NCBI RefSeq assembly: GCF_030815975.1
Contig: NZ_JAUSXL010000002.1
Coordinates: forward strand, 2,518,501-2,582,500
From: Variovorax paradoxus
GTDB taxonomy: Bacteria > Pseudomonadota > Gammaproteobacteria > Burkholderiales > Burkholderiaceae_C
Direction of reading: 5' to 3'
Length of the DNA: 64,000 nucleotides
Below the pieces are notes generated by a model. It did no database searches. It saw nothing but the letters and a program-made list of their open reading frames with translations, and had not been told where the DNA came from. Within the stretch, counting starts at the first letter, position 1; each line of letters opens with the position of its first letter. The position numbers and the translations under genes were made by a program. Positions 27,535-44,377 of this stretch are shown here, one piece after another.

Positions 27535-27610
27535 GGCCCGGTAGCTCAGTTGGTAGAGCAGCGGATTGAAAATCCGCGTGTCGGTGGTTCGATTCCGCCC
27601 CAGGCCACCA
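27535..27610 (+). tRNA. tRNA-Phe (GAA) with a C-A mismatch in the acceptor stem
   Basis: A 76-nt tRNA with anticodon GAA in the loop TTGAAAA, T-arm GGTTCGATTCC and encoded CCA. Acceptor GGCCCGG faces CCAGGCC, so the fifth pair is C against A (A at 27602) while all other pairs are Watson-Crick. It is the last core gene before the accessory island. Confidence 0.95.
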
Positions 27611-27644
27611 AATTCCTGCGTTCCTTAAAGGCGCAACCCCAAAA

Positions 27645-27678
27645 AGCCCCAAGCAAATCAACAGCTTAGGGCTTTTTT
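27645..27678 (+). terminator. rho-independent terminator after tRNA-Phe
   Basis: AGCCCCAAGC (27645-27654) pairs, with one mismatch, with GCTTAGGGCT (27664-27673), followed by six T. Preceded by an A-run, so it may also work leftwards. Confidence 0.85.
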
Positions 27679-28395
27679 GTGTCCGCCTTCATCCGCCTTG
27701 GTTCATCGACATCCACCGGATTCGGCAGCAACTCCCAAATTCGTAAGTTGTCGATAAAGTTACTGCATCGGCGTCGTGCCGGCGCTTTTCGGCTGCGTGA
27801 TCTCTCAGCTCGGCATTGCGCACGCAAGCTCCTAACGCTTGTGCAGGTACAAGCTCGCGCGGACGAGCTTGAGAATTGGCCGATCGCGTCCGCTATGGTG
27901 GGCGCCCGGAACACAAGAAGAATCCTGGCGACTTTGGACTCACGCCGCTGGCCGATCCTGGGCAAGGTAAATCGTTGTGTGATGCCGCCAAGATTTCTGA
28001 GCGTGATGAAAGCAACAAAGCTACTGCAGGCCGGATTGCGCACTGGCCTCCTGAGCGACCGCATGATCATCGGAGTGGCCGAAAAATGTCTGATCGGTCA
28101 CGGACGACGGCCTTGCAATGGAGGCGCAGCCCGAGAATCCCGAATCGGCGACTTACCATGGCTGATGCCTGAGACTGATCCGCTCCACTGGAAGTGATCA
28201 TCGATGGAAGCGCCCTAATGGCTGACCTGCGGATCGGTGCGAAGTGGATGGCTGCGACGTCAGGGGAGCAGGAAGTCAAGCCACGGCGGCTCTGATCGAC
28301 ATGTACGTCGACGATGTCTGCTTGACTCGGAACCAAGACATCTGGGCAGAGACTGTGCGCGATAGCGTCTTCGTGTCTACGTATCCATTGGCGAT
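27679..28395. other. no confident gene: degenerate island edge
   Basis: About 700 bp with only short frames, none with a start, ribosome site and recognisable protein. Composition is more AT-rich than the flanking core genes. I see no intact integrase and no second copy of the tRNA-Phe 3' end. It probably represents decayed mobile DNA, given the IS66 fragment that follows. Confidence 0.4.
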
Positions 28396-42064: not shown

Positions 42065-43527
42065 CAGAAGTAGCCCTCCTGCTTTTTCTTTTCCATGGAG
42101 CCGGCGCTGTCGGTGTCGATCTTGCGGCCCTGGCGTTCTGACTTGCGGGCGTGAATGATCTCCAGCAGGATCTCTTCCAGCGTTTCTGCCTCGGACTCCA
42201 CCGCACCCGTGAGCGGATAGCAGCCGAGGGTGCGGAAGCGCACCTTTTTGATTTGAACTTCCTCGCCTGGCAATAGACGGCAGCGCTCGTCGTCCACCAT
42301 CATGATCATCTCGGGACGAACCACCACCGGCCGTGGCTTGGAGAAGTACAGCGGCACCATGGGGATGTTCTCCTGGTAGATGTAATGCCAGATGTCGAGT
42401 TCGGTCCAGTTCGACAGCGGAAACACGCGAATGCTCTCGCCGGGGCCTTTTCGCGTGTTGTAGAGGTTCCAGAGCTCCGGGCGCTGATTCTTCGGGTCCC
42501 AGCGGTGGGTGGCGGTACGGAATGAGAACACCCTCTCCTTGGCACGGGACTTCTCTTCGTCGCGCCGTGCACCGCCAAAGACGAAGTCGAACTTGTAGTG
42601 ATCCAGCGCCTGTTTCAGGCCCTCGGTCTTCGTGATGTCGGTGTGCAGCGCCGAGCCGTGGTCGAAGGGGTTGATATTTTTTTCGATCGCCTCGGGGTTG
42701 GTATGCACCAGCAGGTCCATGCCACTTTCGCGTGCCATGAAGTCCCGAAACATGTACATCTCCTGAAACTTCCAGCGCGTGTCGATGTGCAGCAGCGGAA
42801 ACGGCGGCAGTGCGGGGTAGAAGGCCTTGCGCGCCAGGTGCAGCATGACTCCACTGTCCTTGCCGATGGAGTACATCATCACCGGGTTCTGTGCTTCGGC
42901 CACGGCCTCGCGCAGGATGTGGATGCTCTCGGCTTCCAGGCGCTTGAGGTGCGGAGAGGGTGCCAGATCGGGTTTGATGTTGCCGCTCAAACTCAACCCT
43001 GTGGGCAAGACGGGACGGTAAGCATGGGGACAAAATTGAATGTCTGCGGTGCTTGGGGTGTGGCGCAAGTACCCCACCAGCGGGCCGTGCGGAAACACGG
43101 CGATAGGCTTGCCGATGTGGTGTTGCAGCTCGGCCAGTGCTTGCTGAATGGCCGCATCGTTCAGGTTGGCCATGGGCACCCAGAACCGGGCTCCGCGAGC
43201 GTCGTTGGCGTGCAGGCAGGGCTGGCCGCCAGGCAAGGGATGCAACTGTGTAAACAGTACCCGGTCGCGCCATTTGCGCGCGTGCTCGATGGCCCTGTCG
43301 AGCACCAGCCGATTGGGCGAGCGGTCGCGCTCGTCGAGCAGCAGCTCGGGCGTCAACTCTTGTGGCAGCATGCCAAGTGCGTTCAGGCGCCGCTCGGCCG
43401 TGCGTTTCGTGTCCGCTTCACCCAGTGCTTGCAAGTGGGCGAAGGCGAGTTCGGTGTTCCAGACTTGGGGGTGATCCAAACCCATGAGATCTCCCGAGGG
43501 TTTTGTCGCATATTGTGATTTGTTCAT
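42064..43527 (-). CDS. cysD: sulfate adenylyltransferase subunit 2 with ~185-residue N-terminal extension
   Basis: 487 residues. From about residue 190 it is a normal CysD of ~300 residues: HLKRLEAESIHILREAV, PP-loop YSIGKDSGVMLHLARKAF, FGGARRDEEKSRAKER, FPLSNWTELDIWHYI. It joins ATP and sulfate to APS with CysN. The first ~185 residues (e.g. DHPQVWNTELAFAHLQALG, RVLFTQLHPLPGGQPCLHA) match no domain I know. ATG 43527 starts the extension; no break or internal start with a good ribosome site is seen at the junction. First gene of the leftward operon, divergent from cysQ. Confidence 0.88.
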   Translation of the reverse strand: MNKSQYATKPSGDLMGLDHPQVWNTELAFAHLQALGEADTKRTAERRLNALGMLPQELTPELLLDERDRSPNRLVLDRAIEHARKWRDRVLFTQLHPLPGGQPCLHANDARGARFWVPMANLNDAAIQQALAELQHHIGKPIAVFPHGPLVGYLRHTPSTADIQFCPHAYRPVLPTGLSLSGNIKPDLAPSPHLKRLEAESIHILREAVAEAQNPVMMYSIGKDSGVMLHLARKAFYPALPPFPLLHIDTRWKFQEMYMFRDFMARESGMDLLVHTNPEAIEKNINPFDHGSALHTDITKTEGLKQALDHYKFDFVFGGARRDEEKSRAKERVFSFRTATHRWDPKNQRPELWNLYNTRKGPGESIRVFPLSNWTELDIWHYIYQENIPMVPLYFSKPRPVVVRPEMIMMVDDERCRLLPGEEVQIKKVRFRTLGCYPLTGAVESEAETLEEILLEIIHARKSERQGRKIDTDSAGSMEKKKQEGYF

Positions 43528-43591
43528 TCATCCCCCGAGATTGACTGTAATGATACGATCCTATACGAGATGAAAAAGAAAACAATACGTA
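43528..43591. promoter_or_regulatory. divergent promoter region cysD / cysQ
   Basis: A 64-bp gap between outward-facing starts. Towards cysQ, TTGACT (43541-43546) and TATACG (43562-43567) form a -35/-10 pair with a short 15-bp spacer. The region is AT-rich. No CysB-type site can be assigned by eye. Confidence 0.45.
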
Positions 43592-44377
43592 ATGCGACAA
43601 GTCCATCATCAGGCCCTACTTGAGCAACTTCTTCCGTTGGCCCGAACCGCCGGAAGCACCATCATGTCGGTCTACGATGGAAGTGGGGCAAACGTTCAGT
43701 ACAAAGATGATGCGAGCCCAGTCACGGAAGCGGACCTGGCGGCGCATCGGGTACTGGCAACGCGGTTGACTCCCCTGTTGCCTGGTTGCCCAGTGGTTTC
43801 GGAAGAGGACTTGGCATCGCAGGTCTACCGCCGAGCAGGGCGATTCTGGTTGGTTGACCCTCTCGATGGCACCAAGGAGTTCATCGCCCGCAACGGCGAG
43901 TTCACCGTCAACATTGCGCTGATTGAGGACGGACACAGTGTGCTCGGCGTGGTGTACGCACCCGCCATCGATGCGCTGTACTGCGGTGGCGCTGGATTGA
44001 GTGCCTTTCGGTGTATCCGCGGTCAAACCGTCGCCATCAAGGTGGCCGCAGCCCAAACAGGCCGCGCGTGCCGGGTTGTCGCAAGTAAAAGTCATCTGAA
44101 CGACGCGACGCGATCGTTGATTGATCGCCTGGGTGAAGTGAGCCTGGCCCAGGCCGGCAGCTCGCTCAAGTTCTGTCGGGTTGCCGAAGGCGAGGCCGAC
44201 ATATACCCACGGCTGGCACCTACTTGCGAATGGGACACGGCGGCAGCACAGGCGATACTGGAGGGGGCAGGTGGCGCAGTAGTGGATCTTCAGGGACGGC
44301 CCTTGCAGTACGGCAAAGCCGATGTGCTCAATCCCTCCTTCATCGCCGCCCGCGATACAGCACTCATCCCGGCATGA
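43592..44377 (+). CDS. cysQ: 3'(2'),5'-bisphosphate nucleotidase CysQ
   Basis: A 261-residue Mg-dependent phosphatase of the inositol monophosphatase superfamily. Metal-binding motifs are VTEADLAAHRVL, VSEEDL and the signature DPLDGTKEFIARNGEF, with the second signature WDTAAAQAILEGAGG at the C-terminal side. It removes PAP, the inhibitory by-product of PAPS-dependent sulfotransfer, which fits its place beside PAPS-synthesis genes and the sulfotransferase. Start at ATG 43592, which has only a weak purine-rich leader. Confidence 0.92.
   Translation: MRQVHHQALLEQLLPLARTAGSTIMSVYDGSGANVQYKDDASPVTEADLAAHRVLATRLTPLLPGCPVVSEEDLASQVYRRAGRFWLVDPLDGTKEFIARNGEFTVNIALIEDGHSVLGVVYAPAIDALYCGGAGLSAFRCIRGQTVAIKVAAAQTGRACRVVASKSHLNDATRSLIDRLGEVSLAQAGSSLKFCRVAEGEADIYPRLAPTCEWDTAAAQAILEGAGGAVVDLQGRPLQYGKADVLNPSFIAARDTALIPA

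Follow-up and report, generated by a model that had tools for sequence, protein, structure and literature searches.

A sulfotransferase-glycosyltransferase fusion beside an extended CysD and a PAPS-making gene set in Variovorax paradoxus: a candidate sulfate-capping polymerase-terminator

Gene content of the island

To characterize a candidate sulfated-glycan locus of Variovorax paradoxus, we analyzed a 64,000-nucleotide stretch of its genome (assembly GCF_030815975.1, contig NZ_JAUSXL010000002.1, positions 2,518,501 to 2,582,500), referred to here as the window. The locus is an island with a tRNA-Phe gene at its left edge (27535..27610, plus strand; ARAGORN) and a gene for a methyl-accepting chemotaxis protein at its right border (44460-45950). 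Its largest gene (30255..35696, plus strand) encodes an 1,813-amino-acid protein, here called the megaprotein, in which a sulfotransferase domain, a coiled coil, and the glycosyltransferase modules WbsX, GT2, and GT4 are joined in one chain. Downstream on the same strand are genes for an S-adenosylmethionine (SAM)-dependent methyltransferase of 342 amino acids (36402..37430; Methyltransf_11, 44.4 bits, cut-off 21.2) and an NAD-dependent sugar epimerase/dehydratase of 352 amino acids (37432..38490; 174.1 bits, cut-off 20.9).

The remainder of the island is a block of genes for making 3'-phosphoadenosine 5'-phosphosulfate (PAPS) and for removing 3'-phosphoadenosine 5'-phosphate (PAP), which we call the cys block. 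Three of its genes lie on the minus strand. They encode CysNC, a 636-amino-acid fusion of the sulfate adenylyltransferase large subunit to adenosine 5'-phosphosulfate (APS) kinase (38725..40635; NF004035, 954 bits, cut-off 715; Pfam APS_kinase, 235.3 bits); a 468-amino-acid flavin adenine dinucleotide (FAD)-NAD(P)-binding protein of the NAD_binding_9 family (40658..42064; PF13454, 133.9 bits); and a CysD of 487 amino acids that carries an N-terminal extension (42064..43527; NF009214, 539.3 bits, cut-off 413; TIGR02039, 488.4 bits, cut-off 396.6). The fourth gene, cysQ, is divergent and encodes the 3'(2'),5'-bisphosphate nucleotidase that removes PAP (43592..44377, plus strand; 261 amino acids; TIGR01331, 286.6 bits, cut-off 228.8). 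A first-pass annotation had placed all of its named enzymes between the tRNA-Phe and chemoreceptor genes, and we found each of them there with an intact frame and matches over curated cut-offs. It had missed the FAD-protein gene, the orphan N-terminal domain of CysD, two gene remnants (of a glycosyltransferase and of a TauE/SafE-type permease), and a fragment of an IS66-type transposase. Chance open reading frames (ORFs) were ruled out, as every part of the island has a family match over cut-off.

Architecture of the megaprotein

The megaprotein (P0002) begins with a Sulfotransfer_2 domain (PF03567; residues ~24-252) that covers profile positions 5-252 of 252 at 85.3 bits (cut-off 22). It is followed by a coiled coil (~280-497), a WbsX domain (best stretch, ~926-1125; 101.7 bits, cut-off 25.1), a GT2 module (1143-1266; Glycos_transf_2, 96.8 bits, cut-off 23.3), and a GT4 module (1612-1760; Glyco_trans_1_4, 44.7 bits, cut-off 27). 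A tandem array of 13.9 copies of a 42-bp unit (31131..31714, plus strand) codes the 14-residue, two-heptad repeat of the coil, whose hydrophobic period is 3.50.

Residues 1-260, used as a database query, matched 165 proteins of similar length (E ≤ 0.001), and we describe this family from P0002 and the 120 relatives listed of the 165, 121 megaproteins in all. Across these, the motifs TPKVACTT..KWW and VRNP..R.FSAW were at least 95% conserved; TPKVACTT and RNP..R.FS are presumably the PAPS-binding motifs of the sulfotransferase. Past the sulfotransferase, 118 of the 121 proteins have a run of 90 or more residues without proline, compared with 12 of 121 when the last 450 residues served as a control. 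Some of the 120 relatives carry WbsX after the sulfotransferase and others carry RgpF (PF05045). Named holders among the matches listed included Variovorax sp. CCNWLW186, Aeromonas caviae, Metapseudomonas otitidis, Paraburkholderia, and Mesorhizobium.

Conceivably, the acceptor of the sulfotransferase is a small molecule or a lipid, and the glycosyltransferases next to the enzyme belong to a separate pathway. The Pfam family names leave the acceptor unfixed, and a search of solved-structure sequences with the Sulfotransfer_2 domain gave no match at E ≤ 0.01. On the other side, the sulfotransferase and three glycosyltransferase modules form a single polypeptide and the fusion is conserved, and we regard a small-molecule or lipid acceptor as highly improbable.

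The order of parts in the megaprotein, with an enzyme in the cap position at one end, an extended coil, and polymerase glycosyltransferases at the other end, is that of known polymerase-terminators. In chain-terminated O-polysaccharides as described in the source cited here, a coiled-coil ruler separates the terminator, at its far end, from the modules of the polymerase; in O12 and O7, a single protein comprises all of these parts, and Wzt reads the cap through a carbohydrate-binding domain (PMC11231755). The megaprotein resembles WbbB (Klebsiella O12), ORF6 (O7), and WbdD (Escherichia coli O9a), which, in the excerpted descriptions, have an N-terminal cap enzyme, an extended coil, and polymerase glycosyltransferases beyond it (PMC11231755, PMC3482155); in WbbB and O7 ORF6, the cap enzyme and polymerase share one chain (PMC11231755), as they do here. 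As far as those descriptions extend, the caps in these systems are methyl, methyl-phosphate, or Kdo (3-deoxy-D-manno-oct-2-ulosonic acid), whereas the window megaprotein has a sulfotransferase in that position and an adjoining PAPS set. It further differs from them in its WbsX and GT4 modules and in that no wzm was found near the window copy.

Related arrangements were seen in other loci. In L026 and L028, an enzyme of the Sulfotransfer_3 type, rather than Sulfotransfer_2, precedes a strongly heptad-periodic stretch, which suggests that the sulfotransferase-coil layout arose more than once. In L024 (2171-4783), an 870-amino-acid protein that combines a sulfotransferase-like domain with an FkbM methyltransferase and a GT2 module is encoded beside wzm/wzt and an extended-CysD block. 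Because its sulfotransferase-like domain falls under the cut-off (Sulfotransfer_1, 19.8 bits, cut-off 22), Pfam may miss some sulfotransferases.

The cys block and its extended CysD

Plain CysD has about 300 amino acids, and the window CysD has 185 extra residues at its N terminus. The TIGR02039 match covers residues 194-487, and residues 1-185 had no Pfam family match at E values up to 5. This N-terminal domain is conserved (427 proteins at E ≤ 0.001). Named genomes contribute 65 loci with the domain; by their titles, nearly all of these genomes are beta- and gammaproteobacteria, with one Rhizobium. CysNC was recognized in 65 of the 67 extended-CysD loci examined, of which L022 and L039 represent one and the same site in Diaphorobacter nitroreducens. 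An even draw of genomes from the order yielded the domain in 15 of 399; in the 14 loci fetched from that draw, it shares one ORF with CysD sequence, the frame being broken in one. When a tree was built from just the CysD part, a single branch split 60 extended CysDs from 22 others with one change (support, 100/97); 61 of the 68 extended rows were entered, one was dropped for having too few columns, and the bootstrap had not settled. The predicted structure of the domain (pLDDT [predicted local distance difference test] 91.1) had no confident structural relative, so that an RNase H-like/integrase-core fold is no more than a possible assignment and the structure points to no function; in the full-length model, the CysD portion matched the ATP sulfurylase CysD 1zun_A. 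Our guess is that the domain docks CysD to its partners.

Other features of these blocks recur. The FAD-protein gene sits between cysD and cysNC, with its ATG overlapping the cysD stop; it occupies the same place in L026, L028, and L046 (74, 79, and 51% identity, respectively) and is found near the block in L050, L054, L060, and L081. L054 has two tandem extended CysDs on one contig (3538-4995 and 10007-11476), each with CysQ and an FAD-protein gene. A plasmid origin of the extended CysD was rejected, there being no match in the plasmid collection.

The window genome has one Sulfotransfer_2 match, the one beside the cys block, and none to Sulfotransfer_1 or Sulfotransfer_3. We asked how often the two occur together using Pfam whole-genome searches of 50 of the 65 named-locus genomes, the 15 loci on short contigs being left out. 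A Pfam sulfotransferase was encoded within 10 kb of 21 of 51 extended CysDs, versus 1 of 44 other CysDs in the same 50 genomes (Fisher P = 3.7e-6, not corrected for relatedness; for a random point, 0.37 of the 50 genomes would be expected). A partial CysD (G234:C146) was entered in this count and two weak CysD rows (E = 4e-5 and 4e-4) were not, and one of the 21 neighbors, in the genome of L054, scored under the Pfam cut-off. Sulfotransferase counts from neighborhood searches were excluded from the statistics, as a number of the seeds had been taken from the opening 330 residues of longer proteins and may include other domains. At least one Pfam sulfotransferase was present in 39 of the 50 genomes. 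The single unextended CysD with such a neighbor lies about 1 kb from a Sulfotransfer_3 gene (G224:C49; L134, in the genome of L053) and groups with the unextended L140 in the tree. Five loci from several genomes of one genus (g443; L112, L114, L116, L117, and L118) have an extended CysD with no recognized sulfotransferase nearby.

Among 200 family genomes, Sulfotransfer_2 was found in 7 and the N-terminal CysD domain in 4 at E ≤ 0.001 (one at 6e-4). Both are present in the window genome and in G010, where they lie within 7 kb of each other, and neither a sulfotransferase nor an extended CysD is present in the same-genus genome G122.

These data bear on whether the cys block is simply the general sulfate-assimilation set, next to a sulfotransferase by chance. 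The window genome has a second CysN/CysD set at C2:4.93 Mb, 2.4 Mb away (CysN at C2:4933387), whose CysD is 44% identical to the extended CysD and falls on the unextended side of the tree. This second set adjoins a NIR_SIR reductase and a PAPS_reduct-domain protein for which PAPS reductase models are the nearest (121.5 bits, under the cut-off of 154). A further CysD match was likewise present in 41 of the 50 extended-CysD genomes (in the genome of L054, it is a second extended copy); the remaining 9 genomes, several of them incomplete metagenome-assembled genomes by their titles, had no other CysD, as a general assimilation role would have it. Also in line with that role, 30 of the 51 extended CysDs had no Pfam sulfotransferase within 10 kb, some of them on contigs that end early; in the draw from the order, profiles recognized a sulfotransferase in 2 of 14 loci, both already in the named set, and in 0 of the 10 new loci, four of which were on contigs shorter than 15 kb. 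Furthermore, we saw no APS kinase next to the second set, a separate CysC not having been searched for across the genome. With a PAPS_reduct protein but no kinase beside the second set, the island CysNC might also feed assimilation. Set against this are the second set with its reductases, the absence of the extended domain from 196 of 200 family genomes, and the enrichment near sulfotransferases, and we consider a chance pairing with a general assimilation set very unlikely. The first-pass annotation had named, as the case that would tell against it, a cys block that was the sole activation set of the genome and syntenic in relatives without the sulfotransferase; what we found instead is a second cysD-cysN, a congeneric genome with neither the sulfotransferase nor the extended CysD, and an extended CysD in just 4 of 200 family genomes.

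Rhizobia have a comparable arrangement in NodP-NodQ, a CysD-like and CysNC-like pair that exists apart from the assimilatory enzymes and is reserved for sulfation of the Nod factor. The cys block is like NodPQ in being a second set, and unlike it in the N-terminal domain of CysD and in the polysaccharide acceptor that we propose.

Related loci, decay, and the proposed role of sulfate

The same set of genes was found in other lineages. In Paraburkholderia phenoliruptrix HU18 (L060) and P. bannensis (L067), genes for the epimerase, the megaprotein, Wzt, Wzm, the extended CysD, and CysNC lie in a row. On plasmid pKTa005_1 of E. coli KTa005 (L092; NZ_CP147085.1), rfbBDAC, a GT2 gene, wzm, and wzt accompany genes for the megaprotein, a 741-amino-acid glycosyltransferase, and the epimerase, along with cysD-cysN-SLC13-cysC. 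Over its full length, the window megaprotein is 50% identical to that of L060, 48% to that of L067, and 61% to that of L092 (1,831 columns); for the epimerase, the values are 63, 62, and 70%, respectively. The plasmid differs from the window in that its cysD is unextended and its PAPS set is built as cysD-cysN-SLC13-cysC, and in that it keeps wzm/wzt and the second glycosyltransferase, the latter decayed in the window. Because the same megaprotein stands beside two differently built PAPS sets, a chance neighborhood does not explain the pairing. The plasmid cluster (NZ_CP147085.1, 45322-82089) resides on a conjugative plasmid of the IncF type in an E. coli from river water; among 5,426 E. coli genomes, 2 matched it, one over cysD only, so that 1 holds the cluster.

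Together, the recurrent pairing and the position of the lone sulfotransferase of the genome bear out part of the first-pass annotation, which had all of these enzymes serving one sulfated surface polysaccharide: coupling among PAPS supply, sulfotransferase, and glycan is very probable. Export of the glycan to the surface in this strain is the weaker part of that claim, given the wzm search described below. The general decoration by sulfate that it had envisaged is replaced in our account by a chain-ending sulfate, to which the architecture points.

We think it probable that the island encodes a single-chain polymerase-terminator of a surface glycan, with a sulfotransferase as the capping enzyme and with its own PAPS-making and PAP-clearing set. 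Under this model, the extended CysD and CysNC would convert sulfate to PAPS, and the C-terminal part of the megaprotein, with its WbsX, GT2, and GT4 modules, would lengthen a lipid-linked glycan with a sugar made with the help of the epimerase. The coiled coil would keep the N-terminal sulfotransferase at a set distance, such that only chains that are long enough would be sulfated, which would end extension. CysQ would hydrolyze the leftover PAP. In relatives, the Wzt_C domain of the neighboring ATP-binding cassette (ABC) transporter would then read the cap and permit export. The model predicts Wzt_C in the neighboring transporters, and we found it in 9 of the 10 neighboring Wzt proteins tested in related loci (L022 included); it was absent from the Wzt of L024, whose C-terminal part looks frame-shifted. 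For the specific proposal that sulfate is the chain-ending cap, we would put the chances at slightly under even.

The principal alternative to a chain-ending cap is that the sulfotransferase places sulfate on repeat units throughout the chain, the coiled coil being a mere spacer or oligomerization element. Capsules of Vibrio sp. KMM 8419 and Cobetia marina KMM 1449, as represented in the portions of the reports cited below, carry sulfate inside the repeat unit and have PAPS genes and sulfotransferases in the cluster. Moreover, stand-alone sulfotransferases that lack a coil occur beside the extended CysD, for example, one of 269 amino acids in D. nitroreducens (L022/L039). Decoration accounts less well for a sulfotransferase placed across a long coil from polymerase modules, which is the reported terminator layout, and for the Wzt_C domains of the neighboring Wzt proteins, and we judge it somewhat unlikely.

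Several observations weigh against the polymerase-terminator reading, among them the extended CysDs without a nearby sulfotransferase and the possible assimilatory use of CysNC described above. A 3.5-residue periodicity with z ≥ 3 was detected in 56 of 121 coils and in 46 of 121 control regions, a poor separation. Distances from the sulfotransferase to a post-coil motif, which was present in 48 of the 121 proteins, had no 7- or 14-residue quantization (Rayleigh P = 0.20 and 0.31); of eight periods tried, a period of 8 gave P = 0.007, which we do not interpret. We found no match to wzm in a search that covered the window and 200 kb to each side of it but did not extend to the rest of the genome. 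The flanks contain four matches to Wzt seeds that, at 24-29% identity, look like general ABC ATPases. Because of these two results, we infer that the exporter in this strain is elsewhere or lost. Lastly, part of the locus has decayed. A remnant of a GT2+GT4 glycosyltransferase (35697-36402, plus strand) is nearest to the 741-amino-acid glycosyltransferase of pKTa005_1, which has the same relative position; by blastx, it matches L092:23367-25592 in separate pieces and frames (best E values, 1.4e-21 and 1.9e-5). The second remnant is the start of a TauE/SafE-type permease gene (44388..44444, plus strand), whose translation, YALAGELTGFVVGLTGVG, aligns with the start of L022:18129-18920 (TauE, 146.1 bits). 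In relatives, such a permease gene follows cysQ; intact counterparts are present in 23 loci of the L022-L090 set.

Such decay raises the possibility that the island is a relic, a former sulfated-glycan locus that no longer works in this strain. The two remnants, the IS66 fragment, and the lack of a nearby wzm are what would be expected of a relic. The frames of the megaprotein (1,813 codons), CysNC, the extended CysD, CysQ, the epimerase, and the FAD protein are intact, and we view a defunct locus as unlikely.

Across 29001-39000, the G+C content is 0.46-0.55, whereas the cys block has 0.60-0.66 and the remaining window 0.60-0.72; the low-G+C stretch contains the two methyltransferases, the megaprotein, and the epimerase. 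It is this stretch, together with the IS66-type transposase fragment (28396..28842, plus strand; zf-IS66, 35.1 bits; NF033517, 41.4 bits, under the cut-off of 180), that suggests acquisition. One search across the window for a second copy of the 3' end of the tRNA-Phe gene matched just the tRNA itself, and a search of the plasmid collection for near-identical DNA of the island returned just short pieces from 5 plasmid records. A prophage or virus origin was rejected, P0006 having no match in viral_contigs. The second SAM-dependent methyltransferase of the island (29552..30241, plus strand; 229 amino acids; Methyltransf_24, 54.1 bits, cut-off 26.3) had no relative among the neighborhood ORFs of loci L022-L090 (E ≤ 1e-8).

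Linkage of PAPS genes and sulfotransferases in polysaccharide clusters is already published, which limits the novelty of our reading and qualifies the statement in the first-pass annotation that sulfated bacterial glycans outside rhizobia and mycobacteria are little described. In the parts of the reports on which we draw, the capsule clusters of Vibrio sp. KMM 8419 and C. marina KMM 1449 have extra cysD/cysN/cysC, sulfotransferase, and ABC transporter genes (PMC11641403, PMC11766843), with cysN/C, cysD, cysQ, and a sulfate permease in Cobetia. Those clusters are from marine gammaproteobacteria with Kps-type export and, as they are described there, differ from the island by having neither the sulfotransferase-glycosyltransferase fusion nor the N-terminal CysD domain. 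We searched the open PubMed Central literature, which does not cover subscription journals, and found no paper on a fusion of a sulfotransferase domain with a glycosyltransferase, a coiled coil, and O antigen; none on an N-terminal extension of CysD with ATP sulfurylase; and none on a sulfotransferase with Comamonadaceae or Paraburkholderia and a (sulfated) polysaccharide. Neither chain termination by a sulfotransferase nor the N-terminal domain of CysD turned up in the open papers searched.

At its broadest, and more tentatively, our proposal is that sulfate could be a chain-terminating and export-licensing cap supplied by a horizontally spread PAPS set, with the orphan CysD domain docking or regulating the sulfotransferase. 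Such systems would form a new class of terminator distributed over Comamonadaceae, Alcaligenaceae, Burkholderiaceae, Pseudomonas, and plasmids. In the extended CysD, an enzyme of primary metabolism bears a conserved domain that is always fused to it, which poses the question of the function of this domain. If the proposal is true, the sulfotransferase-coil-glycosyltransferase fusion and the extended CysD would be two sequence markers for sulfated glycans in genomes. Sulfate would join the short list of caps that stop the growth of O-polysaccharides, and its role would account for the company that PAPS genes keep with clusters of glycosyltransferases in bacteria of soil and fresh water.

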